This document shows positions 10,637 through 37,760 of a stretch of DNA of 64,000 nucleotides, piece by piece; the stretch's first letter is position 1, and each line of letters opens with the position of its first letter. A program made the position numbers and the translations under genes. The notes beneath the pieces are model-generated. The model had not been told where the DNA came from, did not search any database, and saw only the letters and a list, made by a program, of their open reading frames with translations. The DNA is from an uncultured Acetobacteraceae bacterium (GTDB lineage: Bacteria; Pseudomonadota; Alphaproteobacteria; Acetobacterales; Acetobacteraceae), in contig CAIVPZ010000109.1 of the NCBI GenBank assembly GCA_903907955.1, forward strand, positions 62,001-126,000. The letters are read 5' to 3'.

Positions 10637-10644
10637 GGCTGCCG

Positions 10645-12375: not shown

Positions 12376-12426
12376 CCGCCGCAGATGCGTCGGAGGCGGC
12401 GGAAGTAGCCCAACACGGCGTTGCGA

Positions 12427-14323: not shown

Positions 14324-14324
14324 A

Positions 14325-14543: not shown

Positions 14544-14648
14544 GCGTATCCTTCGTTGTGATGGCGCCGAGGCGGGGCCAGAATCGGCGCAACATGAGCA
14601 TGCGGTAATGCCGGGTCAAGCGCGCGTAGGGAAGGCGGGCGCCGGCGC

Positions 14649-15968
14649 TTAAGGAATGGGGTCCAGGGCAGCGCCCTGGCCTTCCTTGAGTCTTACCGAA
14701 ATGCTCCGGCCATGCGCCTGCAACCCCTCCGCCTCGGCCAGCGCCATTGCCGCCGGGCCGAGGCGGCGCAGCGCGGCGGCGTCGCCGGCGAGCCAGGTGG
14801 TGCGCTTGAGGAAGTCGAACACCGACAGCCCGGAGGCGAAGCGTGCCGTGCGTCCGGTGGGCAGCACGTGGTTCGGCCCGGCCACGTAGTCGCCCAGCGC
14901 CTCCGGGCAGAACGGGCCGAGGAACGCGGCGCCGGCATGGCGGATGCGCGCGAACAGCGCCGCAGGGTCGGCGGTCATGATCTGGAGATGCTCGGGGGCC
15001 AGCCGGTCGGCCAGTGCCGCGGCTTCCTCCCAGTCGCGCACCAGGATGATGGCGCCGTGCCGTTCCCAGGATGCGCCGGCGATGGCGGCGCGGGACAGGG
15101 TGGGCAGTTCGGCGGCGACGGCTGCCGCCACCGCGGCGGCGAACCCTGCATCGTCGGTGATCAGGATGGATTGCGCCGCTTCGTCGTGCTCGGCCTGGGC
15201 CAGCAGGTCGATGGCGACGCGGCGCGCATCCTGGGTGGCGTCGGCGATCACCACCACTTCGGAGGGGCCGGCGATGTTGTCGATGCCGACGCGGCCGAAC
15301 ACCTGGCGCTTGGCCTCGGCCACATAGGCGTTGCCGGGGCCGACGATGCGGTCCACCGGGGCGACGGTGGCGGTGCCCCAGGCCAGGGCGGCGACCGCCT
15401 GGGCACCGCCGACGCGGTAGATTTCGGTGACGCCGGCGCGTGATGCCGCGGCCAGCACCAGCGGGTTGAGCACGCCGCCGGGCGTCGGCACGCACATGGC
15501 GATGCGCGCCACCCCGGCGACACGGGCCGGGATGGCGTTCATCAGCACCGATGACGGATAGGCCGCCTTGCCCCCCGGCACATACAGGCCGACCGAGTCG
15601 AGCGCGTTCCAGCGCATGCCCAGCGTCATGCCCTCGGCATCGGTGAGCCGGAGGTCGGCGGGAAGCTGGGCGCGGTGGAATTTCTCGATGCGGGTGGCGG
15701 CGAGATCGAGCGCTGCGTGCAGGTCGGCCGGCACGGCCTGGACCGCCGCGGCGATTTCGTCGGCGCCGATGCGCAGCCGGTCGGGGGTGACGGCCATGCG
15801 GTCGAAGCGCCGGGTGAGGTCGCACAGGGCGGCGTCGCCGCCGGCGCGCACCTCGGCGATGATGGCGGCGACGGCGGTGTCCACCCGTTCGGTGGTTTCG
15901 CGGGCCTGTTCGAGCAGGGCGCGGAAGGCGGACTCGAAACCGGGGGCGGTGGTGGTGAGGCGGATCAT
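14649..15968 (-). CDS. hisD: Histidinol dehydrogenase, with repeat-derived C-terminal tail
   Basis: A 439-residue enzyme catalysing the last two oxidations of histidine synthesis (L-histidinol to histidine, NAD-dependent, zinc). Visible family motifs are [57 protein letters not shown] (Zn-ligand region), LAPEHLQIM and [14 protein letters not shown]. The ATG overlaps the hisG stop (ATGA). The last 11 codons ([11 protein letters not shown] and neighbours) are the reverse reading of the palindromic repeat at 14652-14690, so the native C-terminus appears to have been replaced by the repeat. Confidence 0.96.
14652..14690 (+). repeat. Intergenic palindrome repeat, copy 2 (single palindrome, inside hisD 3' end)
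   Basis: GGAATGGGGTCCAGGGCAGC followed by GCCCTGGCCTTCCTTGAG. Only the second palindrome (CCAGGGC/GCCCTGG) is present. The copy lies inside the hisD reading frame and supplies its last codons; the hisD stop is at 14649-14651. Confidence 0.8.
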
Positions 15969-20501: not shown

Positions 20502-21203
20502 ATGGCGGACGAAGCGACGATCCTGGTGGTGGACGACGACGACCGGCTGCGCACGCTGCTGTCGCGCTACCTTGCCGAGAACGGGTTCCGTGTCACCACC
20601 GCCGCCAGCGCCGCCGAGGCGCGCGAAAAGCTGCGCTTCCTGCAGCCCGAGCTGATGGTGCTGGACGTCATGATGCCGGGCGAGAGCGGCCTGGAACTGA
20701 CGCAATCGCTGCGTCGCGACAATGCCGCGGTGCCGGTGCTGCTGCTGACCGCGCGCGGCGCCCCGGAGGACCGCATCGCCGGCTTCGAGGCGGGGGCGGA
20801 CGATTACCTGCCGAAGCCGTTCGACCCGAAGGAACTGCTGCTGCGCATTCGCGCGCGCCTGCGCCGCATCGCCGCGCCGCCGCCGCTGCCGGACGCGCCG
20901 ACCGGCCCGGTGCCGCTGGGACCGCTGGCGTTCGATCCGCAGCGCGGCGAGCTGACCGGGCCGGCGGGTGTGGTCCGCCTGACCGGCGGCGAGGCGGCAC
21001 TGCTGGGCGTGCTGGCGCGCAAGCCGAACGAGGTGCTGTCGCGCGAGGATATCGTGGCGGCGCTCGACACCGACGATACCGGCGAGCGGGCGATCGACGT
21101 CATGGTGACGCGCCTGCGCCGCAAGCTGGAGGCCGATCCGCGCGAGCCACGCTTCCTGCACACCGTTCGCGGCCGGGGCTATGTTCTGAAGCCGGGGCGC
21201 TAA
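20502..21203 (+). CDS. OmpR-family response regulator
   Basis: A 233-residue protein with an N-terminal receiver domain (TILVVDDDDRLR; phospho-acceptor D55 in LMVLDVMMPG; K105 in DDYLPKPFDP) and a C-terminal winged-helix DNA-binding domain (TGGEAALLGVLARKPNEVLS, RAIDVMVTRLRRKLEADP, RTVRGRGYVL-like end). The ATG follows GGGGGACGG. The cognate sensor kinase follows 9 bases later. The target genes cannot be read from this window. Confidence 0.94.
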   Translation: MADEATILVVDDDDRLRTLLSRYLAENGFRVTTAASAAEAREKLRFLQPELMVLDVMMPGESGLELTQSLRRDNAAVPVLLLTARGAPEDRIAGFEAGADDYLPKPFDPKELLLRIRARLRRIAAPPPLPDAPTGPVPLGPLAFDPQRGELTGPAGVVRLTGGEAALLGVLARKPNEVLSREDIVAALDTDDTGERAIDVMVTRLRRKLEADPREPRFLHTVRGRGYVLKPGR

Positions 21204-21212
21204 GCAGCGCCG

Positions 21213-22544
21213 ATGCGGGTGAACATTCCCAAGGCGCATCTGATCAAGCGCATCCTGCCGCGCTCACTGCTTTGGCGCAGCCTGCTGATGATCCTGCTGC
21301 CGCTGGTGGCGGTGCAGGCGGTGGCGCTGCAGATTTTCTACGGCAGCCATCTCGACATCGTCTCGCGCCGCTTCGCGCTGGCGATCGCCGGCGAGGTGGC
21401 GATGACCGTGGAACTGCTGAACCGCTATCCCGGCGAGTCCGACCGGGCCTGGGTGCTGGCCAACGCCTGGCGGGATTGGGAGATGGCGATGCGCCTGGAG
21501 CCGCGGGCGCAGCTGGGGAGCGGGCGTCACACCAGCATGATCGGGCCGGTGGACGAGGACCTTGCCTATGCGCTGCAGGCGCGCGTGGGCCGGCCGTTCA
21601 CGGTGGACTGGGCGTCCGATCCCGTCTCGGTGCTGATCCGCGTGCAACTGACCGACGCCGTGCTCGACGTGCAGGCGCCGCGCAAGCGCCTCTATACCGA
21701 CACGATCTATCTGTTCGTCATCTGGCTGGTCGGCTCGGCACTGCTGCTGTTCATCATCGCGGCGTTGTTCATGCGCAACCAGGTGCGGGCCATCCGCCGG
21801 CTGGCGGTGGCGGCCGAGGCGTTCGGCAAAGGCCGCGACCCGGGGGCGATCAAGCCGGAGGGGGCGACCGAGGTGCGGCAGGCGGCCGCGGCCTTCAACC
21901 ACATGCAGGAGCGCATCCGCCGCTTTCTGCAGCAGCGCACCGAGATGCTGGCTGGCGTGTCGCACGACCTGCGCACGCCGCTGACCCGGCTGCGGCTGGC
22001 GCTGGCCATGCTGCCGGCGCGCGAGGAGTTGCGCGAGGAAGTGGCCGACATGACCGCCGACGTGGCGGAGATGGACCGGATGATCGGCGGATATCTGTCG
22101 TTCGCGCGCGGCGAGGGCACCGAGCAGGCCCGGATGGTGGACCTTGCCCGTCTGCTGGGGGATGTGGTGGCGGCGGCACGGCGGACCGGGGCGGCGGTCG
22201 CGCTGGAAGTGCCTGCGGCGTTGCCGGTGTTGTTGCGCCCCGATGCGGTGCGGCGGGCGATCACCAATCTGGTGGACAATGCCTGCCGTCACGCACGGCA
22301 CGTGACGCTCGGCGCCACGCGGGCCGGGTCGCGCAACATCGAGGTAACGGTGGATGATGACGGGCCGGGCATTCCGCCTGACCGGCGCGAGGGGGCGTTC
22401 CGCTCGTTCGCGAGCGGTGCTGCCGGCGGCACCGGGTTGGGTCTGGCCATCGCGCGCGACATCGTGCGGGCGCATGGGGGGGATATTGTGCTGGAGGACA
22501 GTCCGCTGGGCGGGCTGCGGGCGCGGGTGGTGTTGCCGCGATGA
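21213..22544 (+). CDS. EnvZ-like sensor histidine kinase
   Basis: A 443-residue inner-membrane kinase. Two membrane segments (about 22-42 and 164-187) flank a periplasmic domain of roughly 120 residues. A HAMP domain follows (RAIRRLAVAAEAFGKGRD), then the H-box GVSHDLRTPLTRL with phospho-histidine H251. The ATPase domain has the N box NLVDNACRHA, G1 DDDGPGIPPD and G2 GGTGLGLAIARDI. Organisation and length match EnvZ. It partners the preceding regulator. Confidence 0.94.
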   Translation: MRVNIPKAHLIKRILPRSLLWRSLLMILLPLVAVQAVALQIFYGSHLDIVSRRFALAIAGEVAMTVELLNRYPGESDRAWVLANAWRDWEMAMRLEPRAQLGSGRHTSMIGPVDEDLAYALQARVGRPFTVDWASDPVSVLIRVQLTDAVLDVQAPRKRLYTDTIYLFVIWLVGSALLLFIIAALFMRNQVRAIRRLAVAAEAFGKGRDPGAIKPEGATEVRQAAAAFNHMQERIRRFLQQRTEMLAGVSHDLRTPLTRLRLALAMLPAREELREEVADMTADVAEMDRMIGGYLSFARGEGTEQARMVDLARLLGDVVAAARRTGAAVALEVPAALPVLLRPDAVRRAITNLVDNACRHARHVTLGATRAGSRNIEVTVDDDGPGIPPDRREGAFRSFASGAAGGTGLGLAIARDIVRAHGGDIVLEDSPLGGLRARVVLPR

Positions 22545-23822: not shown

Positions 23823-24296
23823 GTCGGGTCAACGCGGCATCGCCTGACCCGGCGGATGCCCGGGGGTCGTTTACACCCAGGCCGGACCCAAATCCCCAGA
23901 AAAATGATCCGGTCCGATCCTGATGGGGAGGGTGCGAGGGCATGGCTGCCGGCGACGGGATGCCCGGCGATGTCCCCCGGGCGGCGATGCCGGGGCCTGA
24001 CGCGCGCCGGCGAACTGCCGGCCGCGCCAGTCCGGTTGCATACCGTAACCATGGCTTGACGCTGCGGGCCGCTTTTGGCTAAACTCACTATTGGATGCTT
24101 TCAGTAGTAGCAGCAGAATTCCATTCATCAAAAAGCTGTGCGGGGCGCAACCGGACGTGGGATATTCCCCGTGCGGCCGATACGTTGTTCCTGAGCGCGA
24201 TTCCAGCGGGGCATCGTGCAATTCCTGCTGCCCCGCTTTCATGCGCGTGGGTCGGATGACGTGGGCGCCGGTGCGTGCCGGGTGGAGGAGGATACG
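23823..24296. other. Gene-free leader region upstream of the 24297-34594 cluster
   Basis: No gene is seen. It contains a sigma70-like promoter candidate (24056-24085), an AT-richer patch with TCAGTAGTAGCAGCAGAATT around 24100-24120, and a leader of about 205 bases before the ATG at 24297, which is preceded by GGAGGAGG at 24284-24291. Confidence 0.5.
24056..24085 (+). promoter_or_regulatory. Sigma70-like promoter candidate for the RND/exported-protein cluster
   Basis: TTGACG (24056-24061) and TAAACT (24080-24085) are 18 bases apart in a locally AT-richer stretch. They precede the co-directional genes from 24297 onward with a long untranslated leader. Confidence 0.45.
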
Positions 24297-25556
24297 ATGG
24301 CCGACGGCGCGTCCGTCAATGAGGCGACCATGACCGGGGCCGCGTTGCTCTCCGTCCGTCCGCCCGGTGATGCCTCGGCTGACGCGCAAGCGGCAGGGCG
24401 CGAAGCACAGTCCGGGGAGACGCCGCCGGCAACGGCCAGGGCGGCCGAGGAGCCCCATGCCGCGTTGCCGCCGGCAGCGCCGGCGCACCGTGGTGGCCGG
24501 CTGTTCACCGCTCTGTGTGCCATATTGTCGCTGGCCGGCGCGGGCGTGGCGCTGACCGCGCCGACATTCCGCCCGCACGTATTCGAGCTTGCGCGCGTCT
24601 GGCTGGGCGAGGACAGCCCGGTGCTGCGCTATCTGGCGTCGCCCGCCAGCGATGTGGCGCAATCCGTGCCGGTGCTGCCGGGCTATGCGCTCCCGGCGAA
24701 CCAGGCCTCCGCGTCGCTGGCCGCCGTGCGGGCCGAGCTGATCGCCACCTTGCGGCTGGAACTGGACGGGGTGCGGCGCGCCGCGCTCGAGCAGGCCGAG
24801 CGCGTCAAGTCGGTGAGCACTTCGGTCCAGACGGTGCAGAGCGAAGCGGTGTCGGCCCGTGGCGACGCGCGCGCCGCCACCGGCGCCGCCGCCGCGGCAG
24901 CCGCCGCCGCCGCGCGTGCCCAGGCCGATGCGGCGCGGGCGCAGGAAGCCGCGGCGCGGGCGCTGGACGGCACGCGCGACCGGTTCGACCGGCTGGACGC
25001 GCAGGTGGCGACCTTCGATGCACGCGTGCGCGCCACCGGGCTGGTGGTCACGGCCGGCCAGCTGCGCCGCGACATCGAGGCCGGGGCGCCGCTCAGCGAC
25101 GATCTGGTGGCGATCGGCAGCAGCGGTCCGCTGCCCACGCCGGTCCAGCAGGCACTGGATCAGTTGTCACGAACCGAGCGCGGCGTGCCGACGCTGCGCG
25201 ACCTTGCCGTTGGCTTCGAAACGCTGGACACGGATATCCTGGCCCACCGCCGCGGCCAGGGATCATGGTTCTCGCTGGGCGGCGTGTTCAGTGACGACAA
25301 CCCCGAGCGCGCATCGCGCGACCGGGTGCGCGCGCTGGCGGCCGAAGGGCGGTTCAGCGAAGTGGCCGACATGCTGGAGCGGTCGGAATGGGCGGAACTG
25401 TCGAAGCGCTGGATCACCCAGGTGAGGCTGCACGCTGATTCGGTGATCGCCGGGCAACTGGTCATGGCGCATGCGCTGGCGGCCTACGAGGCGAGCCAGA
25501 CAACGCCTCCGTCATGGCCGCAGGCAACGTCCAGCACGGGACGGGTGTCACAGTGA
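24297..25556 (+). CDS. Single-pass membrane protein with long alanine-rich coiled coil
   Basis: A 419-residue protein. The start is set by GGAGGAGG six bases before the ATG. A disordered A/P-rich N-terminus (1-66) precedes one membrane segment (about 68-88). A long helical region (about 140-260) rich in A, R, Q and D follows, then a C-terminal helical domain (SEVADMLERSEWAELSKRWI). The layout resembles mitofilin/COG4223-type proteins, but this is inference from architecture only. The stop overlaps the GTG of the adaptor gene. It is the first gene of the 24297-34594 run. Confidence 0.7.
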   Translation: MADGASVNEATMTGAALLSVRPPGDASADAQAAGREAQSGETPPATARAAEEPHAALPPAAPAHRGGRLFTALCAILSLAGAGVALTAPTFRPHVFELARVWLGEDSPVLRYLASPASDVAQSVPVLPGYALPANQASASLAAVRAELIATLRLELDGVRRAALEQAERVKSVSTSVQTVQSEAVSARGDARAATGAAAAAAAAAARAQADAARAQEAAARALDGTRDRFDRLDAQVATFDARVRATGLVVTAGQLRRDIEAGAPLSDDLVAIGSSGPLPTPVQQALDQLSRTERGVPTLRDLAVGFETLDTDILAHRRGQGSWFSLGGVFSDDNPERASRDRVRALAAEGRFSEVADMLERSEWAELSKRWITQVRLHADSVIAGQLVMAHALAAYEASQTTPPSWPQATSSTGRVSQ

Positions 25557-27079
25557 ACCGACGGGCCATTCGCTGGCCCGTGTTTCGCGCCGGCCTGCCG
25601 GCGGTGCTGCTGGCCTGCGGGCTGGCGACCGGGGGGCGGGCGGCGAACTGGATCGACCGCCTGCCGGTGGACGAGCCTGTCCTGCTGGCGGAGCATGCCG
25701 CGGCTCCCGCCTTGCCGCAGCCTCCGCAACGCGAGGCGCCAGCGGTCGGGCAGGGCGCGGCCGGGCCGGCATCGGCCGGTGCGCCCGGTTCAGCCGGTGT
25801 GCTCGGCACGGTCGCCGCGCTGCCCGCCCGGCTGGCCGATGCCTTGTGGGCGGTTTCCACCATGCTGGGCTTCAGCGCGCCGGCGATCCGCCAGCCGCCG
25901 GACGGCGAGGCGGTGTCCGGTGGCGAGGACCCCGCCGGGGTCGCGCCGCCGGCTGTTCCGGTTGTCGCCCCCTCGTCCCCGGCCCGGCTTGCAGCAGCCC
26001 GGCCTGATGTGACCGGGCCGGCGGCCGATGACGAGGTCGATCCGGCGCTGCTGGCCAATTTCGTCTACGACCGCGCCGAGCGCCGGCCGGACGGGTCGTT
26101 CTTCGTGCCGAAAACGCTGCAGCGGCTGTTCAACGTGCGCACCGTTCGCGCCACCGCCGCCGACGTGCCGGTGACGATCCGGCTGTCCGGCCACATCGTG
26201 CCGAACGCGCGCACGCACGGCATCGTGCAGGCAAGCCAGACCGGCCGCTTCGAGCCGCCCGAAACCGGGCTGCCGGTGCTCGGCGACAAGGTGGTGGAAG
26301 GGCAGTTGCTCGGCCTGGTGGCGCCGGCGGTGGGCGCGGTTGACCGCCAGCTGGTGCAGCGCGAGGTGGCGCGGCTCACCGCCGACATCCGGACGGAAAC
26401 CGAGAATCTGGAGCTTCTCAAGCAGTACAGCTTCGTGCTGTTCCGCGACAGCAAGATAGCCCAGGCCGAACAGCAGCTGGCCGGGCTGCGGCGCGAGCGC
26501 GAGGTGCAACTGCAGCTGCTGCAACTGCACGAGCCGCTGCGCGCGCCCACCAGCGGCGTGATCGCGCTGGCTGCCGCGGTCGCCGGCAGGATGGTCAATC
26601 CGGGCGAGGTGGTGTTCGAAATCGTCGATCCGGCGGATCTCTGGGTCGAAGCCATTGCGGCCGATCCGGCCGCCGCCGCCGATGCCACCCGGGCCCGCTC
26701 CGCCACCGCGCTGACGCCTGAAGGGCAGGCGTTGCGGCTGATCCCCGTGGGCGGCGGCGCCGCGGCAACGCCGGCCGCTTCCCCCATCCTGTTCCGCATC
26801 GAGGCGCCGCCGGAAGGGTTGCTGGTGGGGCGCCCGGTGACGGTGACGGTGCGCAGCGAGACGCGCGCGCGTCACGGCATGCCGGTGAGCCGCGAGGCGG
26901 TCACCATCGGCACCGATGGTGTCCAGGAGGTCTGGGAGCAGACCGCGCCGGAAGTGTTCCTGCCGCATCCGGTGCGCACGCAGGATATCGACGGGGCCAC
27001 CGTGCTGGTGATGGACCCGCTGGCCGACGGTGTGCACCTGGTGGTGCGCGGCGCCCGGCTGATGGCGCAACTGCAATGA
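25553..27079 (+). CDS. RND-type periplasmic adaptor (membrane fusion protein)
   Basis: A 508-residue protein starting at GTG overlapping the previous stop (GTGA). A signal peptide is followed by a long A/P-rich stretch to about residue 160. Then come a barrel-sandwich half (VTIRLSGHIVPNARTHGIVQ), a helical hairpin (VQREVARLTADIRTETENLE ... QAEQQLAGLRREREVQLQLL), the returning lipoyl half (APTSGVIALAAAVAGRMVNP) and a beta-barrel. This is the CusB/HlyD order. It should link the inner-membrane pump at 27716 to an outer-membrane channel not encoded nearby. The long disordered N-terminal insert is unusual. Confidence 0.85.
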   Translation: MNRRAIRWPVFRAGLPAVLLACGLATGGRAANWIDRLPVDEPVLLAEHAAAPALPQPPQREAPAVGQGAAGPASAGAPGSAGVLGTVAALPARLADALWAVSTMLGFSAPAIRQPPDGEAVSGGEDPAGVAPPAVPVVAPSSPARLAAARPDVTGPAADDEVDPALLANFVYDRAERRPDGSFFVPKTLQRLFNVRTVRATAADVPVTIRLSGHIVPNARTHGIVQASQTGRFEPPETGLPVLGDKVVEGQLLGLVAPAVGAVDRQLVQREVARLTADIRTETENLELLKQYSFVLFRDSKIAQAEQQLAGLRREREVQLQLLQLHEPLRAPTSGVIALAAAVAGRMVNPGEVVFEIVDPADLWVEAIAADPAAAADATRARSATALTPEGQALRLIPVGGGAAATPAASPILFRIEAPPEGLLVGRPVTVTVRSETRARHGMPVSREAVTIGTDGVQEVWEQTAPEVFLPHPVRTQDIDGATVLVMDPLADGVHLVVRGARLMAQLQ

Positions 27080-27666
27080 CGGGTGCGGGCATGAACGGCA
27101 GGTGGCTGGACGGCGTTCTGAGGTGCCTGCTCGTCCTGTTGGCGGTGGGGCTGGCCGCGCTGCCGGCGCCCGCCGGCGCCGCTCCTGCCCGGCCCTCGCC
27201 GCGCAGCGTGGTCGAGATCGGCGGCGCGAGCGTGGTGCTGGTGGCGGCCAACGACCGGATATTCGCCTTCGTCGACCGGCTGGAGGACAACGCGCCGGTG
27301 GATAACGCGGCGCTGTCGCTGGCTCTGGTTGACGGCGCCGGCCTGAAGCTGGCCCAGCTCAGTCCGCAGCGCGTCGCCGAGGGATTGTTCGTGGCGCCGT
27401 TCAGCCATGCCGGCCACCATCAGGACGCCTTCCTGGTGTCGCTGGCTTCGCCGGCCGGCAGCGGCGATGCGACGGCGTACATCGCCTATGGCAGCGAGGC
27501 GGCGCAGGATATTCCGCCGGCGGGCACCGAACTGGGCGGCCGGGCCGCCATCGCGCTGGTGGCGGGCGCCATCGGGGCGGCGGTGGCCGCCTCGGCGATG
27601 CTGCTGATGCGCAACCGGCGGCGGCGGGCGGCGGCGCCGCCCGACCGCTCGGCGCTGGTCGTTTGA
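27076..27666 (+). CDS. Exported Ig-like protein with C-terminal membrane anchor
   Basis: A 196-residue protein. A signal peptide (to about residue 36) leads to a beta-rich domain (RSVVEIGGASVVLVAANDRI ... FAFVDRLEDNAPVDNAAL, QRVAEGLFVAPF), then a single membrane segment (about 155-177) and a basic tail (MRNRRRRAAA). The domain resembles the small Ig-like modules found beside heavy-metal RND pumps (inference). Its start overlaps the adaptor stop by four bases, and the pump starts 49 bases after it, so it is probably an accessory of the pump. Confidence 0.7.
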   Translation: MTGAGMNGRWLDGVLRCLLVLLAVGLAALPAPAGAAPARPSPRSVVEIGGASVVLVAANDRIFAFVDRLEDNAPVDNAALSLALVDGAGLKLAQLSPQRVAEGLFVAPFSHAGHHQDAFLVSLASPAGSGDATAYIAYGSEAAQDIPPAGTELGGRAAIALVAGAIGAAVAASAMLLMRNRRRRAAAPPDRSALVV

Positions 27667-27715
27667 TGATGGTCATGCGAACCAGCCGCCGCCGGGCTGG
27701 CTGAACCGGGGCAGC

Positions 27716-30700
27716 ATGTTCCAGGCGATCGTCGGTTTCAGCCTCCGCCAGCGCCTGTTCGTTCTGGTGGTGACGGCCATTCTGGTCGGGTGGGGGGCGC
27801 TGACCGCGCGCGACCTGCCGATCGAGTTGCTGCCCGAGACGCGGCCTCCCGCGGTGGTCATCCTCGCCGAGGCGCCCACCCTGGCAGCCGAGGATGTCGA
27901 GCGGCTGGTCACCCTGCCGATCGAGGCGGCGATGCAAGGCCTGCCGGGCGCAACCGGTCTGCGCAGCGCGTCCAACGCCGCCGCGAGCCGGGTGCAGGTG
28001 CTGTTCGCCTGGGGCACCGATCCCTACCGCAATCGCCAGCTGGTCAGCGAGCGGCTGGCGGTGCTGCACGGACAATTGCCGGAAGGGGTGGTGCCGCTGC
28101 TGGCGCCCCGGTCCAGCGCCACCGGGACCATCGTGGAGATGGCGGTGACCGGCAGCGCCGGCCCGATGGCGCTGCGCGAATACGTCGACTGGGTGCTGCG
28201 GCCCCGGCTGCTGGCGGTCGAAGGGGTGTCGGAGGTCTCGGTCATCGGCGGCGAGGTGCGGACCTACCGGTTCACGCCGCGGCCGCTGCTGATGGCGGAC
28301 AGGGGCGTCACCCTGGCCGAGGTGGAACGCACCCTGGCGGCGTTCGGCGGCGCCGGCGATGGCAGCCTCGATGACATGCGCAGCCTGGTGGTGGCGTATC
28401 GCCTGGGCGCGCCGGTGCTGCTCGGCCAGCTTGGCGACGTGGCCTTCGCGCCGCGGGTGAAGCAGGGCGACGGCACCTTCAACGGCAGGCCCTCGGTCAA
28501 CGTCCAGATCGTCCGCCAGCCCGACGCCAACACGGTCGACGTGGCGGGGCGCATCGCCGCGGCGCTGGATGGGCTGCGGGGCACCGCTCCGGCGGGGGTG
28601 GTGCTCGGCCAGATCTCCTACAATCAGGCCGACATGATCCGCGGGGCGATCGGCAATCTCGGCCGCCTGCTGCTCGAGGCGGCGATCCTGGTGGCCGTGG
28701 TGCTGCTGGTGTTCCTGGCCGATCCGCGGCCGGCCGCGGTCTCGCTGCTGGCGATCCCGGTTTCGCTGCTGGTCAGCGCCATCGTGTTCAGCATGATGGG
28801 CCTGAGCCTCAACACCATGACGCTGGGCGGGATCGCCATCGGGCTGGGCGAACTGGTCGACGATTCGGTTGTGGACGTCGAGAACATCCTGCGCCGGCTG
28901 GGCGGCAACCGGAAGCCCGCGCCGCCCGCGCCCGCGCCGGTGCCGGTGGTCATCGCCAGGGCGTCGCAGGAGGTGCGGTCGGGCATCGTGCATGCCACGG
29001 CCATCATCATGCTGGTCTGCCTGCCGCTGCTGGCCATGCCGGGGCAGCCCGGGCGGCTGTTCGCGCCGCTGGCGATCGCCTACATCGTCGCCATCCTGGC
29101 CAGCCTGCTGGTGTCGGTCACCCTGACCCCGGTGCTCGCCTCCTACCTGTTTCCGCGTATGCGGGGACTGGAGCAGGACCATCTCGGGCGTTTCGCCCGC
29201 TGGCTGCGCCAGCGCCACGAGCGCCTGCTGGTGCGGGTGCTCGACCGGCCACGCAGCACGCTCGCCTTTGCCGTGCTGGCGGTGGTGGCGTCGATGGCGA
29301 GCCTGCCGTTCCTGCCGCGTTCCTTCCTGCCGCAGTTCAACGAGGGCAACGTCACCGTCCGGCTGCTGCTCAACCCGGGCCTGTCGGCCGGCGAATCGTT
29401 CCGGATCGGTCACCTGGCCGAACAGATCCTGATGCAGATTCCGGAAGTGAAGGCGATGTCGCGGCGCAGCGGCCACGACGAGGCCGATATCGGCCTCGAG
29501 CCGGTGAAGGGCAACGAGATGCCGCTGCGCATCCAGCTCGACCAGGGCCGCAGCCTCCAGGAGCTGATGGCCGAAATCCGCCGCCGGCTGGCGATCTTCC
29601 CGGCCGACCTGGAGGTGAGCCAGTTCCTGGAGCACCGGGTGGAGGCGCAGGACAACATGGTGCGCGGCCAGATGGTGGTGAAGCTGTTCGGCCCCGACCT
29701 GCCGGCGCTGCGCACGCTGGCCGCCGGCCTGCGCGATCAGATGGCGCGGGTGAAGGGGCTGACGGACGTGGCGCTGGAGCAGCAGGGCGCGGCGCCGCAG
29801 CCGCGCATCGCCATCGACGCCGCGCACGCCCGGCTGGCCGGCGTCACGCCGGCGCAGATCAGCGCCATCCTGGCCGGATTCGCCAATGGGCACACGGTTT
29901 CGCAGGTGGCCGAGAACGGGCGGCGATTCGACGTGACGGTGCGGCTTGCCGACGAGGACCGCACGCCGGAAGCGCTGGCCCGGGTGCTGATCGACAGCCC
30001 GGCCGGCCGGGTGCCGCTGTCCTCCTTCGCCACCCTGACATCGACCACCGGCCCGGGCCGCATCCTGCGCGAGAACGGCGAGCGCCGGGTCGCGGTGATG
30101 GCCAATCTCGAGGGGGGCGCGGACACTACCCGGGTGGCGGCGCAGGTGCGCGACATCATCGCCCGGACGGCGCTGCCGGCGGGCATCCATGCCGAACTGG
30201 CGGGCGACTTCACGCTCGGCGAGCAGGGGCGCCGGGTGCTGGCGGTGCTCGGTTCGCTGGCGATCGTGCTGATCTTCGTGGTGCTGCAGCAACGCTTCCG
30301 CTCCATCGTGCTGAGCCTGATCGTCATGGGCAGCATTCCGCTGGCACTGGTGGGCAGCGTGGCCGCGGTGTGGATCGCCGGGCTCGATCTCAACCTTGCC
30401 GCCATCATCGGCGGCATCGCGGTGACCGGGCTGGCGGTGCGCAACTCGCTGCTGAAGGTCAGCCATTTCATCAACCTGCATTTGCATGAGGGGATGAATG
30501 CCGGCCGCGAGCTGGTGCTGCGCGGCGCCAACGAGCGGCTGATTCCGGTGCTGCTGACCGCCTGCGCCGCCGGGGCGGCGCTGCTGCCGCTGCTGTTCGC
30601 CGCCGGCGTCACCGGGGCGGAGATATTGCATCCGGTGGCGGTGGCGGTTTTTGGCGGGTTGATCAGCGCGACCTTGCTTGACACCTTCACCACGCCGATG

Positions 30701-30778
30701 CTGTTCGAGCGCTTCGGCATCGGCGCCCTCGACAGGATGATCGCGACCCATGCCGGGCTGGCGCATGAGACGTTTTAA
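27716..30778 (+). CDS. HME-type RND efflux permease
   Basis: A 1020-residue inner-membrane pump of the CusA/CzcA branch. The N-terminus (FSLRQRLFVLVVTAILVGWG, then LPIELLPETRPPAVVILAEA) and the SEVSVIGGEVRTYRF block are typical, as are two sets of membrane helices separated by large periplasmic loops. The proton-relay helix TM4 carries GELVDDSVVDVENILRRL with E379, D382 and D383. Substrate is normally a metal cation or a small molecule; the usual methionine clusters of Cu/Ag pumps are not evident. It works with the adaptor at 25553. Confidence 0.93.
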   Translation: MFQAIVGFSLRQRLFVLVVTAILVGWGALTARDLPIELLPETRPPAVVILAEAPTLAAEDVERLVTLPIEAAMQGLPGATGLRSASNAAASRVQVLFAWGTDPYRNRQLVSERLAVLHGQLPEGVVPLLAPRSSATGTIVEMAVTGSAGPMALREYVDWVLRPRLLAVEGVSEVSVIGGEVRTYRFTPRPLLMADRGVTLAEVERTLAAFGGAGDGSLDDMRSLVVAYRLGAPVLLGQLGDVAFAPRVKQGDGTFNGRPSVNVQIVRQPDANTVDVAGRIAAALDGLRGTAPAGVVLGQISYNQADMIRGAIGNLGRLLLEAAILVAVVLLVFLADPRPAAVSLLAIPVSLLVSAIVFSMMGLSLNTMTLGGIAIGLGELVDDSVVDVENILRRLGGNRKPAPPAPAPVPVVIARASQEVRSGIVHATAIIMLVCLPLLAMPGQPGRLFAPLAIAYIVAILASLLVSVTLTPVLASYLFPRMRGLEQDHLGRFARWLRQRHERLLVRVLDRPRSTLAFAVLAVVASMASLPFLPRSFLPQFNEGNVTVRLLLNPGLSAGESFRIGHLAEQILMQIPEVKAMSRRSGHDEADIGLEPVKGNEMPLRIQLDQGRSLQELMAEIRRRLAIFPADLEVSQFLEHRVEAQDNMVRGQMVVKLFGPDLPALRTLAAGLRDQMARVKGLTDVALEQQGAAPQPRIAIDAAHARLAGVTPAQISAILAGFANGHTVSQVAENGRRFDVTVRLADEDRTPEALARVLIDSPAGRVPLSSFATLTSTTGPGRILRENGERRVAVMANLEGGADTTRVAAQVRDIIARTALPAGIHAELAGDFTLGEQGRRVLAVLGSLAIVLIFVVLQQRFRSIVLSLIVMGSIPLALVGSVAAVWIAGLDLNLAAIIGGIAVTGLAVRNSLLKVSHFINLHLHEGMNAGRELVLRGANERLIPVLLTACAAGAALLPLLFAAGVTGAEILHPVAVAVFGGLISATLLDTFTTPMLFERFGIGALDRMIATHAGLAHETF

Positions 30779-30882
30779 GCTGCGGGAACGGGCATTCGGA
30801 TGAGTTCACTGGCACTGAAGCTTCGGTTGCGCGGGGGCGGGTTCCGGCAAAGCCATGCGGTCGGGCAGGAGGCGCCGCGCCG

Positions 30883-31851
30883 GTGACGGTCTGGCGGATC
30901 GCCCCGGCGGCGCTGCTGCTGGCTGGCCTGTCCATCGGGACCGGCCATGCGGCCGCGCTGCGTCCGCAGGCGCTGCTCGAGGCGGCGCTGTCCGGGCTGG
31001 CGCCGGCGCCGCTTGCCGGCGGTGCCTGGTCCGCGCTGGGCCGCGAGGCCCTGCTCGGGGCGTTGTGCGCGCCGCGCGATGGTCCGCTGCTGCGGGTTGC
31101 CCTGACCACCCGCCCACCGAGCCGCTGGCAGCACACCGCCTGCGTCGCCGTGGCGGCCGCGGCGCTGTCCGACCGGGTGGTCGGCCACCAGGTGCTGCTG
31201 GGGTTCGGCGGGGCGTCGGCGCCGCCGCTCACCGCCGCGCTGCTGTACCGCGCGCTGGCTGCCCGCGTGCCGGATTCGGCGGGCGGGCTGGCGCCCAACC
31301 GCGCGACAAGCTGGCGCGTGCTCGATCCGTCGCTGCCCGATGCCCCGATCCGTGTGCTGCTGCCGGCGGACGGCACCGCCGAGGCGCGCATCCTGCGCGA
31401 ACTGGTGTTGTACGGCGGCTGCGTCGCCGCGTCGGCGCGGGCGGCCCGCCCGCTGCTGGCGGAGGGGTGCATGGCGCAGTGCGGCGACCTGCGCGGTGAC
31501 GTGGCGGCTGCGCGGGCGACGCCTGAACACGGTGCCGCGGCCTGGCTGCGCGAGGCCGGGCCGTCCGCGGTGGCGCTGGTCGGGCTGGCGACGGTGGCCG
31601 CGGAGCCGGAACTGGAGAACGCGCTGCCGCTGGACGGGGTGGCGCCGGGCCTCGCCAGCTTCGCCGACGGGAGCTATCGGGCGGCGCTGCCGGTGCATCT
31701 GCTGGTGCTGCAGGCCGGCGCCGCGGCCGAGGCGGCGGATGCGGTGCGCGCGCTGACGGCGGAGAGCGCCATCGGCCCGTCCGGTACGTTGGCGCGGCGC
31801 GGCCTGGCGGCGTTGCCGGCGGCCGGGCGCGTGCGGCTGCGGACGGAGTGA
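30883..31851 (+). CDS. PstS-like exported solute-binding protein
   Basis: A 322-residue protein from a GTG start, with a signal peptide (to about residue 24). The fragment APNRATSWRVLDPSLPDAPI followed by RVLLPADGTAEARI matches the hinge region of PstS-type binding proteins (ITKWNDP...LPDxPIxVVxRxDGSGT), but the phosphate-ligand SGT residues are changed. Four cysteines lie in the second half (GGCVAAS, GCMAQCGD). There are no transport permease genes beside it, so an uptake role is unlikely. It stands 104 bases after the pump gene and overlaps or nearly abuts the next gene. Confidence 0.65.
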   Translation: MTVWRIAPAALLLAGLSIGTGHAAALRPQALLEAALSGLAPAPLAGGAWSALGREALLGALCAPRDGPLLRVALTTRPPSRWQHTACVAVAAAALSDRVVGHQVLLGFGGASAPPLTAALLYRALAARVPDSAGGLAPNRATSWRVLDPSLPDAPIRVLLPADGTAEARILRELVLYGGCVAASARAARPLLAEGCMAQCGDLRGDVAAARATPEHGAAAWLREAGPSAVALVGLATVAAEPELENALPLDGVAPGLASFADGSYRAALPVHLLVLQAGAAAEAADAVRALTAESAIGPSGTLARRGLAALPAAGRVRLRTE

Positions 31852-31862
31852 GGGAACCGCGC

Positions 31863-32960
31863 ATGCGCAGCCAGGGCCGCCCGGGACGGGGCATGATCCG
31901 CGCGCTTGCCATGGCGGCGCTGCTGCTCGGGGCGCCGGCGGCGCACGCGGCTTCGCCCGGCGCCACCGTGACGGGGGTGCTGGAGATCGCCGGCAAGCAG
32001 GTGCCGCTGCCGCCCGGGGCGTGGGAAGTGGCGGCAACCGGCGAACAGCCGGCCACCGCGGAGCAGGCGCCCTTTGGCGTGGTGCGCTCCGCCATTCTGC
32101 TGCTGCGCGACGGCGAACGGGTGCGCGCGCTGCTGGAGGTCAATGCCAACGACATCGCGGTGAGCGGCGGCTGGGCATCGCCCTGCGGCAACGATCCGCT
32201 GCCGCCCCAGCGGCGGTTGCTCTACCGCAGCCAGTATGACGCCGCCTGTGCCGAAACCGGGGCGGTGCGTCCGGACAGCGCCGGCCCGCCGGCCTGGCAG
32301 GAGACGCGCACCGCCATCGCGCGGGCCGGGCTGCAACTGCCCGAGACCATGCTCACCGCCATCGCGCTGTGCGCCGACCGGCAGGATTTCCTCGAGGTGC
32401 GCCTGCACCTGCGCGAGGTGCCCGGGGCCGACGAAGCGGCGCGGCAACAGGCGCTGCTGGACTGGGCGACGACGTACGCCGCGCTGCTGGACGAAGGGTT
32501 GTCGCGCCGCATCGGCCGGCTGGTGCTGGACTGGCCCGGCCGGGCGGCGCTGTTGCAGGATTCGCCGGTGCTGGACCGGCGGCTGCTGCGCATCGAGGCG
32601 ATGCGCGCCAGCGGTGCCATCACGCCGGCCGAGGCGGCGGCACAGGAACTGGCCGTGGTGCAGGAGGTGCCGATGAGTGCCGTGGACCCGCACCCGCGCA
32701 TCACACTGTGGACCCAGATCAGCTACCAGCTGATCAACTTCGGCACCGCCTACAGCGTGACCCGGGATGTGCCGCTGTCGGTGGGCATCGCGGCGAGCGA
32801 ATATCTCGCTTACAGCTGGCTGGCGACGGCCAATGACGCACGCTGGGCGGACATCGAAAGCGCGGTGATGCCGCAGCCGCTGCCGATGCCGGCGCTGCAG
32901 CATCTTGGCACCCCGGTGGACAATACCGGGCGATCCGGATTGATGGCGTTGGTGCCATGA
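31863..32960 (+). CDS. Exported protein with DUF2061-like C-terminal module, paralogue 1
   Basis: About 365 residues. The ATG at 31863 has GAGGG upstream; a GTG at 31848 overlapping the previous stop is an alternative. A signal peptide precedes LEIAGKQVPLPPGAWEV, which is repeated in the next gene. The middle part has LLEVNANDIAVSGGW and PPAWQETRTAIARAGLQLPE. The C-terminal region ITLWTQISYQLINFGTAYSV, then GIAASEYLAYSWLATANDAR, looks like a DUF2061-type membrane hairpin. Cysteines occur at CGNDP and CAETG. Function is unknown. Confidence 0.68.
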   Translation: MRSQGRPGRGMIRALAMAALLLGAPAAHAASPGATVTGVLEIAGKQVPLPPGAWEVAATGEQPATAEQAPFGVVRSAILLLRDGERVRALLEVNANDIAVSGGWASPCGNDPLPPQRRLLYRSQYDAACAETGAVRPDSAGPPAWQETRTAIARAGLQLPETMLTAIALCADRQDFLEVRLHLREVPGADEAARQQALLDWATTYAALLDEGLSRRIGRLVLDWPGRAALLQDSPVLDRRLLRIEAMRASGAITPAEAAAQELAVVQEVPMSAVDPHPRITLWTQISYQLINFGTAYSVTRDVPLSVGIAASEYLAYSWLATANDARWADIESAVMPQPLPMPALQHLGTPVDNTGRSGLMALVP

Positions 32961-34045
32961 GGATCGTTCCGCTCGTGGTGCTCCTGCTGGTCGCCCTCGC
33001 TGCCGGCGCCGCCCGGGCGCAGACCGGGAGGGTCGAGGAGATCGGCGGCAAGCAGGTGCCGCTGGCCGAGGGCGCGTGGATCGCGGCGGGCGACGCCGCG
33101 GGCCGGCTGGAGCCGGCGATGCCGCTCGGTGGCTACGGAATCATCCGCAATCAGGTGCTGCTGCGGCCCTCGGCGGACGGGCGCGGCGTGGCGGTGATGG
33201 CCGAAATCAATGTCAACGAACTCGGCGTTGCCGATGGCTGGGGACTGGCGGCCGATTGCGACCCTGATTTCAGCGCCGAATCGGGTGTCCTGGTCCGCAG
33301 CGGTTGGGATGCCGCGTGCTGGTTCGTCGCCACCCGTGACTGGGACTGGACGGCGGACATGCCGCCGGCCTGGCAGCAGGCGCGCACCGCGGCGGGGCGG
33401 CGCGGGCTGGCGCTGCCGGACCGGACCGTGACGGTCGGGTTGCGGGTGGCCAACCGGCGCGACGTGATCGATCTGCGGTTCCATCTGGCGGAGGCGGGTG
33501 ACGCCGCGCAGCGCGAGGAACTGGCGGAATGGGCGGCGGCCTCGCTCGGCCTGGTGGCAATGGGGCTGACGCACGGGCTGCCTGCCGGGCGGGCGCTGCC
33601 GGGGTTCGACCTCGGACCGGCGGCGCTGGCGCGCGCCGGCATCGTGCAGGAACGCATCGTGCGGCTGCAGGCGCTGGTCGCCCAGGGCGCCCTGACCGAG
33701 GAGGAAGCCCGCCGGCAGGCGGCGGTAATCCGTGCCGCCGCGGAGCGCGAACTGCCATGGGCCTACGATCCGGCCACGGTGCAGGGGCTGCGCTGGTTCA
33801 GCATGCAGACCGGTCTGGCGGCGACGGATGCGGGACTGACCTATCTTTGGACGGAGCAGTCGCTCCAGGCGGCGGCGTTGACGGCGCTGCAGACCGGCCT
33901 GCGCTCGGTGCGTACCTATCTGACCAATATCGTCTGGACCCATGTGAGCAACACCGCGACGCGGTCGGACGCGGCGCGGGTGGTGGATTTCGCCTACGGG
34001 GGGCGCCGGCCGGCGGCCGGGGACGGCCAGCGACCCGCCCCATGA
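32957..34045 (+). CDS. Exported protein with DUF2061-like C-terminal module, paralogue 2
   Basis: A 362-residue paralogue of the preceding product, starting in its last four bases. A signal peptide ends near ARAQTG. Then come EEIGGKQVPLAEGAWIAAG, AEINVNELGVADGWGLAADC and PPAWQQARTAAGRRGLALPD, each matching the neighbour at the same relative place. The C-terminal TVQGLRWFSMQTGLAATDAG, then RSVRTYLTNIVWTHVSN, again resembles DUF2061. It most likely works together with the neighbour in the envelope. Function is unknown. Confidence 0.68.
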   Translation: MRIVPLVVLLLVALAAGAARAQTGRVEEIGGKQVPLAEGAWIAAGDAAGRLEPAMPLGGYGIIRNQVLLRPSADGRGVAVMAEINVNELGVADGWGLAADCDPDFSAESGVLVRSGWDAACWFVATRDWDWTADMPPAWQQARTAAGRRGLALPDRTVTVGLRVANRRDVIDLRFHLAEAGDAAQREELAEWAAASLGLVAMGLTHGLPAGRALPGFDLGPAALARAGIVQERIVRLQALVAQGALTEEEARRQAAVIRAAAERELPWAYDPATVQGLRWFSMQTGLAATDAGLTYLWTEQSLQAAALTALQTGLRSVRTYLTNIVWTHVSNTATRSDAARVVDFAYGGRRPAAGDGQRPAP

Positions 34046-34129
34046 CGGCCGGCATCCCGCCATTCGCCTTTGACGGCGCGCCGTACTTTCCGTTATGCAC
34101 GGGCCGAATTGGCGCGGGGAATTTGCGGT

Positions 34130-34594
34130 ATGATCGTGCAACGTGTCGGTCGGGTTCGGCGCGCGATTGTGCATGCGCTGGTCGTCAGTCTGGTGCTGGC
34201 GCAGGTCTCGCCCGGGCCGGCGGTCGCCCAGGTATTGGCCAATGTCGGCGCCGCGTCGGCGACCGGCGCCATGCTTGCCCAGCGCGCGGCGGCCGAGCCG
34301 GTGGCGAAAACCGCCGGCCCCGGTGAGCTGGCGCCGGCCACCGACATCGAGCGCCAGGGCTATGGCTGCCTGGTGGGCGGCGGGACGGCGGCGGTGATGA
34401 GCGCGGTGGGTGGCGCCACCGAAACGGTCATGGTGGTCGCGGGCGGCATGTTGCGTCCGACCAACTCGATCGTGCTGTGGACCGCGCTGGCCGGCACGGT
34501 TATCGCCGCTGCCTGCGCGGCCGGCGCGTTGGCCACGCCTTCGGTGTTGCGCCTCTGGGATTACTACCACGGCGGCGCCCGGCCGGCCCCTTAA
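34130..34594 (+). CDS. Small exported or membrane protein at the end of the cluster
   Basis: 154 residues from ATG 34130. The N-terminus is a signal peptide or anchor (HALVVSLVLAQVSPGPAVAQ). Two further hydrophobic segments follow: GGGTAAVMSAVGGATETVMV and IVLWTALAGTVIAAACAAGA, with a short polar end LWDYYHGGARPAP. It has no family I recognise. It lies 84 bases after the previous gene and is followed directly by a palindromic repeat that probably ends the transcription unit. Confidence 0.6.
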   Translation: MIVQRVGRVRRAIVHALVVSLVLAQVSPGPAVAQVLANVGAASATGAMLAQRAAAEPVAKTAGPGELAPATDIERQGYGCLVGGGTAAVMSAVGGATETVMVVAGGMLRPTNSIVLWTALAGTVIAAACAAGALATPSVLRLWDYYHGGARPAP

Positions 34595-34597
34595 GCA

Positions 34598-34658
34598 ATG
34601 GGGTCAAGGGGGCCACCGCCCCCTTGCGGGTCCAGGGCAGCGCCCTGGCCTTCTTCCT
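34598..34658 (+). repeat. Intergenic double-palindrome repeat, copy 5
   Basis: GGGGTCAAGGGGGCCACCGC, CCCCTTGCGGGTCCAGGGCA, GCGCCCTGGCCTTCTTCC. It has both palindromes, CAAGGGGGC/GCCCCCTTG and CCAGGGC/GCCCTGG. It fills the space between the convergent ends of the exported-protein cluster and the glycosyltransferase gene. Confidence 0.85.
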
Positions 34659-35969: not shown

Positions 35970-37760
35970 GTGACCAGCACGCTCGCTGCCGCCGAAATCA
36001 CCCGCTACCGCAACCGTCCGCTGGCTTTTTTGTTCCACTACGTCAAACGCCACCGGGCGGGGCACATCGTTGTCCTTATCTCGGTGTTCCTGGCGGTGGT
36101 CGCCTCGGTCTGCACCCAGTACGGCATGAAGGGGCTGATCGACGTGATCTCCCACGGGCCGGGGGCGACCGGCGTGTGGCAGGCCTTCGCGGTGCTCTGC
36201 GCCCTGATCACGGCCGACAACCTGATGTGGCGGGTCGGCTGCTGGGTGGCCGCGCACAGTTTCGTCCGGGTCACCGGCGATGTCCGCAGCGACCTGTTCG
36301 TGCATCTGGCCGGGCACTCGCCCAGCTACTTTGCCGAACGGCTGCCGGGCACGCTGGCCAGCCGGGTCACCGCCACGTCCAACTCCATCTTCCAGACCGA
36401 GAACACCTCGGCGTGGAACGTGCTGCCGCCGATCCTGGCGGTGTGCGTGGCGATCGTGCTGCTGACCACGGTCAGCCCCCTCATGGCGGGGGCGCTGCTC
36501 GGGGTGAGCATTGCGATGGCGGCGCTGATTTTCTGGCTCGCCCGCAACGGCACGCCGATCCACCGTGAATTCGCCACCCGCGCCGCCAGCGTCGACGGCG
36601 AGCTGGTGGACGTCATTTCCAACATGGCGGTGGTGCGCGCGTTCGGCGCCACCTTCCGCGAGCATCATCGGATCAATGCCGGGATCGGCACCGAGATGAA
36701 GGCGCGCCGGCGCAGCCTGCTGTATCTGGAGAAGCTGCGGCTGATCCACGCCGTGCTGACCGCCCTGGTCACCGCCGGCCTGCTGGCCTGGGGCATCATC
36801 ATGTGGCAGCACGGCCTGGCGACGCCCGGCGACATGGTGCTGATCTGCTCGCTCGGCTTCACCATCCTGCACGGCACCCGCGACCTCGCGGTGGCGCTGG
36901 TGGACCTGACCCAGCACGTCGCCCGGCTGGACGAAGCGCTGGGCAGCCTGCTGGTGGAGCACGACCTGCCGGACGTGCAGGGGGCGGCGGCGCTGCGGCC
37001 GGGGCCGGGGCGGGTGGCGTTCGACGGCGTGCGCTTCGGCTATCCGGGCCGGCCGCCGATCCTGCGCGGGCTGGACCTGGTGATCGAGCCGGGCCAGCGG
37101 GTCGGGCTGGTCGGCGCCTCGGGCGCCGGCAAGTCCACCGTGCTGGCGCTGCTGCAGCGCTTCTACGATATCCAGGGCGGCCACGTGCTGGTGGACGGGC
37201 AGGACATCGCCCGCATCACCCAGGACAGCCTGCGCCGCATGATCGCGGTGGTGCCGCAGGACATTTCGCTGTTCCATCGCTCGGTGATGGAGAACATCCG
37301 CTACGCCCGCCCGGAGGCCAGCGAGGCCGACGTGCTGGCGGCGGCCACGGTGGCGCGCTGCCGCGAGTTCATCGAGGCGCTGCCGGAAGGGTTCGAGACC
37401 ATGGTGGGCGACCGCGGGGTGAAGCTGTCGGGCGGGCAGCGGCAGCGGCTGGCGATCGCCCGCGCGCTGCTGAAGAACGCGCCGATCCTGCTGCTGGACG
37501 AAGCCACCAGCGCCCTCGATTCGGAAAGCGAGCAGGCGATCCAGGTGGCGCTGGACAACCTGATGGAGGGGCGGACGGTGATCGCCATCGCCCACCGGCT
37601 GTCCACGCTGCAGAATTTCGACCGGATCGTGGTGATGGATGCCGGGCGGGTGGTGGATGACGGGCCGCCGAAGGTGCTGGCCAACCGGGCCGGGCCATAC
37701 CGCGACCTGCTGCGCAAGCAGCAGACGCCGATGGTGGCGGAACTGGAGCTGGTGGCGTAG
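35970..37760 (+). CDS. ABC exporter with fused membrane and ATPase domains
   Basis: A 596-residue half-transporter starting at GTG. A type IV ABC membrane domain with six helices (residues 1 to about 320) is followed by an ATPase domain with Walker A GASGAGKST (about 382-390), Q-loop VPQDISLF, signature LSGGQRQRLAIARALL, Walker B ILLLDEATSALD and H-loop AIAHRLSTL. It matches MsbA/HlyB-like exporters of lipids, peptides or other substrates, working as a homodimer. Substrate is unknown. A weak repeat copy follows its stop. Confidence 0.93.
   Translation: MTSTLAAAEITRYRNRPLAFLFHYVKRHRAGHIVVLISVFLAVVASVCTQYGMKGLIDVISHGPGATGVWQAFAVLCALITADNLMWRVGCWVAAHSFVRVTGDVRSDLFVHLAGHSPSYFAERLPGTLASRVTATSNSIFQTENTSAWNVLPPILAVCVAIVLLTTVSPLMAGALLGVSIAMAALIFWLARNGTPIHREFATRAASVDGELVDVISNMAVVRAFGATFREHHRINAGIGTEMKARRRSLLYLEKLRLIHAVLTALVTAGLLAWGIIMWQHGLATPGDMVLICSLGFTILHGTRDLAVALVDLTQHVARLDEALGSLLVEHDLPDVQGAAALRPGPGRVAFDGVRFGYPGRPPILRGLDLVIEPGQRVGLVGASGAGKSTVLALLQRFYDIQGGHVLVDGQDIARITQDSLRRMIAVVPQDISLFHRSVMENIRYARPEASEADVLAAATVARCREFIEALPEGFETMVGDRGVKLSGGQRQRLAIARALLKNAPILLLDEATSALDSESEQAIQVALDNLMEGRTVIAIAHRLSTLQNFDRIVVMDAGRVVDDGPPKVLANRAGPYRDLLRKQQTPMVAELELVA

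Follow-up and report, generated by a model that had tools for sequence, protein, structure and literature searches.

The best explanation that we can offer for a cluster of eight genes in an uncultured Acetobacteraceae bacterium is a tentative one, namely that it encodes one half of a two-module envelope machine, in which a resistance-nodulation-division (RND) pump has been recruited into Mla-like trafficking of lipids or other amphiphiles between membranes. The cluster lies at 24297-34594 on the forward strand of a stretch of 64,000 nucleotides (hereafter the window; positions 62,001 to 126,000 of contig CAIVPZ010000109.1) from the 4.6-Mb assembly GCA_903907955.1. Its genes, here called g1 to g8, encode a mitofilin-like protein (g1), an RND periplasmic adaptor (g2), an immunoglobulin (Ig)-like protein (g3), the pump (g4), a PstS-like protein (g5), two exported paralogues (g6 and g7) and a small exported protein (g8). 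We consider it very probable, on comparative genomic grounds, that these genes form one system with a second module encoded outside the window; that this system moves lipids is a possibility that we put forward with reserve. Together the two modules represent a conserved and, it appears, so far undescribed envelope machine of some alphaproteobacteria. An earlier note on the window had suggested a dedicated envelope export or signalling system of eight genes. The recurrence of the gene set upholds a dedicated multi-gene envelope system, with no specific support for signalling, and the eight genes do form a unit, but one that is wider by two DUF6524 genes and that has a link to lipid traffic, through MlaA and an MlaE-type ATP-binding cassette (ABC) transporter, which the note had missed.

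Conservation of the cluster and its second module

The conserved gene content and linkage of the cluster are directly established by comparing gene neighbourhoods, for which genes were called with a simple codon-usage script and labelled from BLAST and hidden Markov model (HMM) matches; several of the relatives are metagenome-assembled genomes (MAGs) split over many contigs. A search of 397 Acetobacteraceae genomes with the adaptor core returned close orthologs (56-72%) in five genomes besides the window's own, six in all, and more distant relatives (32-45%) in many more; the named relatives are Acetobacteraceae MAGs and Azospirillum species. In five of the six window-type genomes the block g1-adaptor-Ig-RND is uninterrupted, and in G156 the g1-adaptor pair lies about 12 kb from the Ig-RND pair on the same contig. 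A small protein of 70-90 residues is encoded directly after the pump in all window-type genomes except the window's own, where the gap between pump and g5 is just 104 bases and this gene is missing. The PstS-like protein, often accompanied by a conserved 200-residue protein (p201), and the paralogue pair follow the block or sit nearby, and g6 and g7 are paired in relatives as well. Strong matches to the paralogues occur in 7 of the 397 genomes, all six adaptor genomes included (P 8e-11 for co-occurrence with the window's own genome excluded, a count that treats genomes as independent and is uncorrected for relatedness). An ortholog of the second DUF6524 gene (b) adjoins the cluster in L062, L063, L065, L066, L068, L089 and the Azospirillum loci, and the divergent placement of the first (a) is likewise conserved.

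The earlier note had expected the exported proteins to recur together with the pump, and this expectation stands in part. The paralogues and the PstS-like protein are separable from the pump, being absent from the Azospirillum operons examined, located on another contig than the pump in G328, and present in G262 in a genome that lacks both adaptor and pump; even so, they stay linked to DUF6524, MlaA and p201. The G262 locus also holds the sole relative of g8 (L109:2975-3340, E 3.6e-9), beside the paralogues, the PstS-like protein, p201, DUF6524 and MlaA. A search of plasmid records with g6 gave no match, and among open-licence papers none was found that describes DUF6524. Two side observations concern the relatives themselves. 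In a groundwater MAG (L091:8550-10565) the gene for the Ig-like protein that follows the adaptor continues into a DDE transposase domain, seemingly interrupting the cluster. Furthermore, MAG records titled Nitrosovibrio sp. Nv4 and Asaia bogorensis (L077, L078, L079) hold loci of the window's Acetobacteraceae lineage; the title of L077 looks wrong because its contig matches G290:C67, which genome search places in the window's family.

A second module, consisting of families F12, F6, F5, F2, F3, F11 and F10, adjoins the DUF6524 pair in G156, G265, G290, G328 and L089. F2 is an ABC ATPase fused to an MlaE permease (PF00005, 2.3e-24; PF02405, 9.2e-12), and other ABC/MlaE fusion proteins match PF02405 at 8.2e-13 and 5.2e-8. 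F10 is a ParA-type ATPase, F3 carries a mitofilin-like domain (by comparison with controls), and F5 is an anchored partner protein of unassigned fold, for which domain searches gave no support as a candidate MCE protein. The window's genome encodes an F2 ortholog (69% identical) on contig C126, outside the window, together with F5, F3, F10 and a third paralogue about 5 kb from the ABC/MlaE fusion; G227, of the same genus, has the same module gene set (L113). A class-wide profile search found the adaptor in 2 of 385 genomes; F5 occurs in 3 of 376, and the two genomes with the adaptor are among these three. Two divergent genomes, namely G711, the third with F5, and G084, an additional member of the Acetobacteraceae, have the whole ensemble in a single place: adaptor, Ig protein, RND pump, MlaA, a mitofilin-domain protein, DUF6524, F6, F5, F2, ParA, p201 and the PstS-like protein. 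In G084 the PstS-like protein and p201 form one fused protein. We regard these single-locus ensembles as the strongest evidence that the genes make up one system.

MlaA, an outer-membrane lipoprotein, suggests a link of both modules to lipid traffic. The phospholipid pathway of E. coli has MlaA at one end and, at the other, the ABC transporter that contains MlaE (PMC5016091). In the Azospirillum loci L141, L086, L088 and L090, the gene immediately before the adaptor encodes MlaA (PF04333, 3.7e-49 for L141). L144 and L087 have MlaA within their MlaE module, G262 has it close to the paralogues, and it is present as well in the L091, G711 and G084 loci. A search of open-licence papers found none linking MlaA, RND and mitofilin. 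At the G711 locus (G711:C7, L157/L142), the ParA gene is separated from the PstS-like/p201 genes by a Na+/inorganic phosphate cotransporter, and ZnuA/ABC-3 genes are also present, a possible phosphate or metal link.

Proteins of the cluster

The family assignments of the cluster proteins are, for most of them, likewise established directly. Based on its sequence, g4 is placed in the CusA/CzcA, or heavy-metal efflux (HME), lineage, as the earlier note had held: it matches TIGR00914 with 578 bits (E 2.8e-173), under the curated cut-off of 701, and its neighbours in trees are the Acetobacteraceae orthologs (100/100) and a single Azospirillum pump, with the copper-operon pumps branching elsewhere. 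Within this clade the copper-type ligands have been lost. Specifically, the copper-type residues His 593, 598, 640 and 644 and Met 645 (window numbering) are gone, the window pump alone keeping one His (640), and the His/Met pattern of copper operons (DEHAEGVHSSE, SHRLDHM), present in 7-8 of the 8 copper-type rows of the alignment, is lost from the window-clade and Azospirillum rows. The clade has an acidic replacement motif in which His has become Asp or Asn (DxDxDxVNxxE), of which the pump in the window shows a degenerate form (EADIGLEPVKGNE). CusA methionines M573/M623/M672 align with R/G/A in g4, and transmembrane (TM) helix 4 reads IGLGELVDDSVVDVEN, retaining VEN and neither DFG nor DGA (the three-methionine site and the DFG-DGA-VEN, or HME1/2, motif are defined in PMC3637150). 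Because the acidic residues of TM4 are kept (LVDDxVVDVEN), coupling of g4 to protons is plausible. With these ligands lost and the gene set recurring across genomes, the earlier view that this is not a metal-resistance operon is supported. So is its statement that an outer-membrane channel is lacking: no TolC/OEP gene was found in the window, and the genome has six OEP open reading frames (ORFs) outside it whose products could act in trans.

The window's pump differs from its orthologs in its rate of change. It carries an in-frame deletion of about 17 residues after residue 217; in a relative-rate test it shows 141 unique changes against 42 in the sister species (chi-square 53.6), with no such acceleration in the other eight genes tested; and 24 near-invariant positions are substituted, against 5-15 in orthologs. 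This one subunit would thus be under relaxed or directional evolution while its neighbours evolve at a normal rate. Because of the fast evolution, the deletion and the missing small partner after the pump, g4 may be changing function or decaying in this genome. The stronger form of this idea, that the pump part is decaying and the operon has little present function, accounts for the same observations, but we judge it quite improbable, given that the frame of 1020 codons is intact, the TM4 residues are kept and the other genes are unaccelerated; directional change would, moreover, give the same picture.

The adaptor g2 was described in the earlier note as having a disordered insert of about 130 residues. 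The stretch is real, but alignment places it as a variable Pro/Ala-rich N-terminal region ahead of the conserved core, in the position that an Ig domain and a TM helix take up in copper-type adaptor relatives. A hairpin segment of about 65 residues, as read from the alignment, separates the lipoyl halves. The profile of g3 aligns with the first 190 residues of copper-type adaptors (98.5%, E 3e-15 by hhalign, whose values here are all pairwise and do not come from database searches; HMM E down to 3e-11), and g3 is for this reason assigned as a detached adaptor domain, encoded as a separate TM-anchored gene. The idea that the Ig-like protein is foreign to pump operons therefore has to be given up. 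In agreement with this assignment, an AlphaFold2 (AF2) model of g3 (predicted local distance difference test score, pLDDT, 79) is matched best by H. pylori CrdA (9ll2; Z 10.8, root-mean-square deviation 2.3 A over 94 aligned residues). The adaptor His motif HEGHDHG is lost in g3, and the Met-rich copper site MMXEMPGMXXMXEM of HpCrdA (PMC9182242) was not found in its sequence. Kinship of g3 with the small Ig-like protein that follows copper-type pumps was considered and is unsupported (hhalign E 0.008).

For g1, the earlier note had correctly seen a single TM segment and a coiled coil and had overlooked the C-terminal domain. The C-terminal 150 residues align with canonical alphaproteobacterial mitofilins (hhalign score 78.9, E 4e-10), with unrelated, reversed and shuffled control profiles scoring at most 20.9, so that the protein appears to have the mitofilin/Mic60 layout of N-terminal TM helix, coiled coil and mitofilin-like domain. 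A Pfam scan of g1 itself gave no match, the PF09731 cut-off of 27.4 bits not being reached, and for a linked protein encoded at the G711 locus the score is 32 bits. There are several mitofilin-domain proteins per system. In a similar manner, g5 scores 17.1 bits against PF12849 (cut-off 27), and homologs in L065 and L142 reach 50.2 and 95.4 bits; through them g5 can tentatively be placed in the PBP_like_2 family.

Each of the paralogues g6 and g7 consists of a signal or anchor, a domain weakly similar to Mog1 and PsbP, and a putative DUF2061-like hairpin. The AF2 model of g6 (pLDDT 78.9) ends in two long C-terminal helices, and DUF2061 (PF09834, cut-off 23.1) matches neither protein, with homologs in L030 and L027 scoring 34.6 and 26.9. 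A PDB sequence search with profiles of g1, the paralogues and g3 found no convincing relative. LpqN/MmpL was also considered as a structural parallel for the paralogues and was set aside: LpqN is missing from the fold lists, and no link to PsbP emerged from the papers found. The window's genome has a second paralogue pair in L027 (G000:C82:60000-79900, at 8713-15792), next to an ABC-2 exporter that is accompanied by ABC_transp_aux and DUF4340 proteins, a GldFG-like arrangement seen again in G227 (L112). It may be that more than one transporter has members of the paralogue family as partners.

All eight ORFs had been placed by the earlier note at the positions given in Table 1, and its description of co-directional genes with several 4-base overlaps proved accurate. 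Each ORF shows strong codon-position bias, with a GC content of 0.84-0.92 at the third and 0.47-0.63 at the second position, and three pairs overlap by 4 bases (27076-27079, 31848-31851 and 32957-32960), the second of these depending on a GTG start at 31848 where the gene finder favours 31863. The promoter-like and terminator-like elements, which are consensus matches only, agree with a single transcript. The two DUF6524 genes, which are paralogous, are assigned to the unit because their divergent arrangement recurs in relatives, and the unit is widened leftwards accordingly.

Table 1. Features of the cluster and its flanks (window positions)
Feature	Position	Strand	Basis and remarks
DUF6524 membrane protein b, 133 aa	22686..23087	-	Pfam PF20134 1.6e-25; divergent partner of operon
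DUF6524 membrane protein a, 145 aa	23248..23685	-	Pfam PF20134 8.9e-35; 81% identity in same-genus L062
Sigma-70-like promoter candidate	24056..24085	+	Consensus scan, 9/12 matches; no evidence of function
g1: N-terminal TM, coiled coil, C-terminal mitofilin-like domain	24297..25556	+	Profile-profile comparison
g2: RND periplasmic adaptor (HlyD/CzcB type)	25514..27079	+	Pfam HlyD_3 1.8e-9, HlyD_D23 2.9e-8; start possibly 25580
g3: signal peptide, CopC/CrdA-like Ig domain (36-139), C-terminal TM helix	27076..27666	+	AF2 model, hhalign
g4: HME-lineage RND pump, 1020 aa	27716..30778	+	TIGR00914 2.8e-173; alignments, trees
g5: exported PstS-like (PBP_like_2) protein	30883..31851	+	PF12849 E 0.0048, below cut-off
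g6: exported paralogue 1, Mog1/PsbP-like periplasmic domain and DUF2061-like hairpin	31848..32960	+	AF2 model, fold comparison
g7: exported paralogue 2	32957..34045	+	35% identity to g6, E 3e-32
g8: small exported protein with hydrophobic segments	34070..34594	+	Start possibly 34130
Terminator-like hairpin	34632..34648	+	Consensus scan

An OmpR/EnvZ-like two-component pair at 20502-22544, beside the DUF6524 genes, scores below curated cut-offs; as a regulator of the cluster it was rejected, since it is not conserved beside the cluster in same-genus L062. After the cluster, at 35970-37760, lies a gene for an MsbA-related ABC exporter, and similar exporters stand next to the paralogue both on C126 (L028:983-2767) and in L113 (13677-15431). 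A PADLOC scan of the window proteins found no defence-family match.

Proposed function and its alternatives

In the mechanism that we propose, a phospholipid or another amphiphile would be moved between the inner and the outer membrane; its identity, the direction of movement and the physical contacts among the proteins are what we infer from the gene set. One engine would be the ABC-MlaE protein, working, like its Mla counterpart, at the inner membrane. The second would be the proton-driven g4, which together with the adaptor g2 and the detached adaptor domain g3 could load or extract the molecule periplasmically. The PsbP-like g6 and g7 and the PstS-like g5 would bind and hand over, or sense, the molecule in the periplasm, and the mitofilin-like g1 and F3 could serve as tethers holding the complex at a membrane contact site. 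The outer-membrane end would be supplied by MlaA or by a TolC encoded elsewhere. It is a further step, and one that we consider doubtful, to see in all of this a new class of intermembrane lipid transporter, built from an RND pump that is driven by protons and now carries lipid in place of metal, an Mla-type ABC transporter without MCE protein, contact-site proteins of the mitofilin type and a ParA that positions the complex.

Several observations weigh against lipid trafficking as the function. In the window-type Acetobacteraceae loci MlaA is not beside the pump and is encoded elsewhere in the genome. A search for PF02470 (MCE/MlaD) at E values up to 10 gave matches only on C23, C82 and C57, with none on C126 or in the window, and a module in which no MCE protein turns up departs from the standard Mla system. 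The fold of g6 is consistent with that of Mog1 (Z 6.4), PsbP (5.7), Tsi3 (4.8) and DcrB (4.2), but weakly so, with all values below 8. Finally, the G084 and G711 pumps, which fall outside the window clade, keep most of the metal-ligand His pattern, and their loci contain CopC/CopD or ZnuA/ABC-3 genes. The machine may on this account have begun as metal handling, and it is likely that the ensemble started with a metal-type pump whose ligands the window clade then lost, a history that does not of itself make lipid the present substrate.

These G084 and G711 loci also bear on the possibility that g4 is a cation pump still, re-tuned from copper to another, harder cation, with the linked lipid genes serving envelope repair or metal-stress co-regulation. 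The HME lineage of g4, the derivation of the Ig domain from copper-type adaptors and the acidic motif common to the clade would fit such a pump. The motif is, however, degenerate in the window's pump, HEGHDHG is gone, and no metal gene was recognised in the annotated window-type Acetobacteraceae loci, so that we hold this explanation to be rather unlikely. A different emphasis is suggested by the several mitofilin-domain proteins, the ParA ATPase (positioning) and glycine-zipper proteins of the system, together with the finding that alphaproteobacterial Mic60 shapes membranes (PMC12136173): the system could be mainly structural or sensory, a complex organising contact sites or intracytoplasmic membranes, with the RND protein as an energised partner or sensor and not a bulk transporter. 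We think this unlikely, given that an RND pump, ABC permease, adaptor and MlaA together are transport parts and that the acidic TM4 residues of the pump are intact. We continue to favour, tentatively, recruitment of the pump into Mla-like trafficking.

Comparison with known systems

Like HME copper pumps of the CrdAB-CzcBA and CusCFBA types, the cluster has an RND pump and an HlyD adaptor, both from that lineage, together with an Ig-like accessory domain that has the CrdA/CopC fold. It differs from them in having no outer-membrane channel, CusA Met triad, copper-type conserved His or HEGHDHG motif, and in encoding the Ig domain as a separate TM-anchored gene. An annotation as CusA/CzcA family thus does not necessarily imply metal resistance. 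Among other RND proteins, the mycobacterial MmpL proteins export lipids with periplasmic partners. The likeness to MmpL is one of function alone, as MmpL belongs to another RND family and has no HlyD-type adaptor.

With the Mla pathway (MlaA-MlaC-MlaFEDB) the system has in common an MlaE-type permease with an ABC ATPase and, in several lineages, MlaA. Here, in contrast, ATPase and permease are fused, no MCE domain was found in the module, and an RND pump, mitofilin-domain proteins and ParA are added. That alphaproteobacteria do build non-standard Mla machines is illustrated by Mpc of Brucella abortus, which is presented, in the part of its description drawn on here, as a chimeric Mla-Pqi system encoded by a four-gene operon with the MCE protein MpcD and a PqiC-like lipoprotein (PMC12436622). 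Mpc has kept its MCE protein, and that part of the description does not present an RND pump as belonging to it. Lipid traffic through the Gram-negative periplasm is incompletely understood, and the present locus would tie pump-driven transport to lipid traffic and membrane contact sites in a form that is genetically testable.

Alphaproteobacterial Mic60/mitofilin has the same succession of TM helix, coiled coil and C-terminal mitofilin-like domain as the cluster's own protein. Proteins of this kind, which join two membranes in alphaproteobacteria, matter for the origin of mitochondrial cristae. Unlike the canonical gene, which in the window's genome is found elsewhere (C20), the copies described here are additional ones, embedded in a transport locus.

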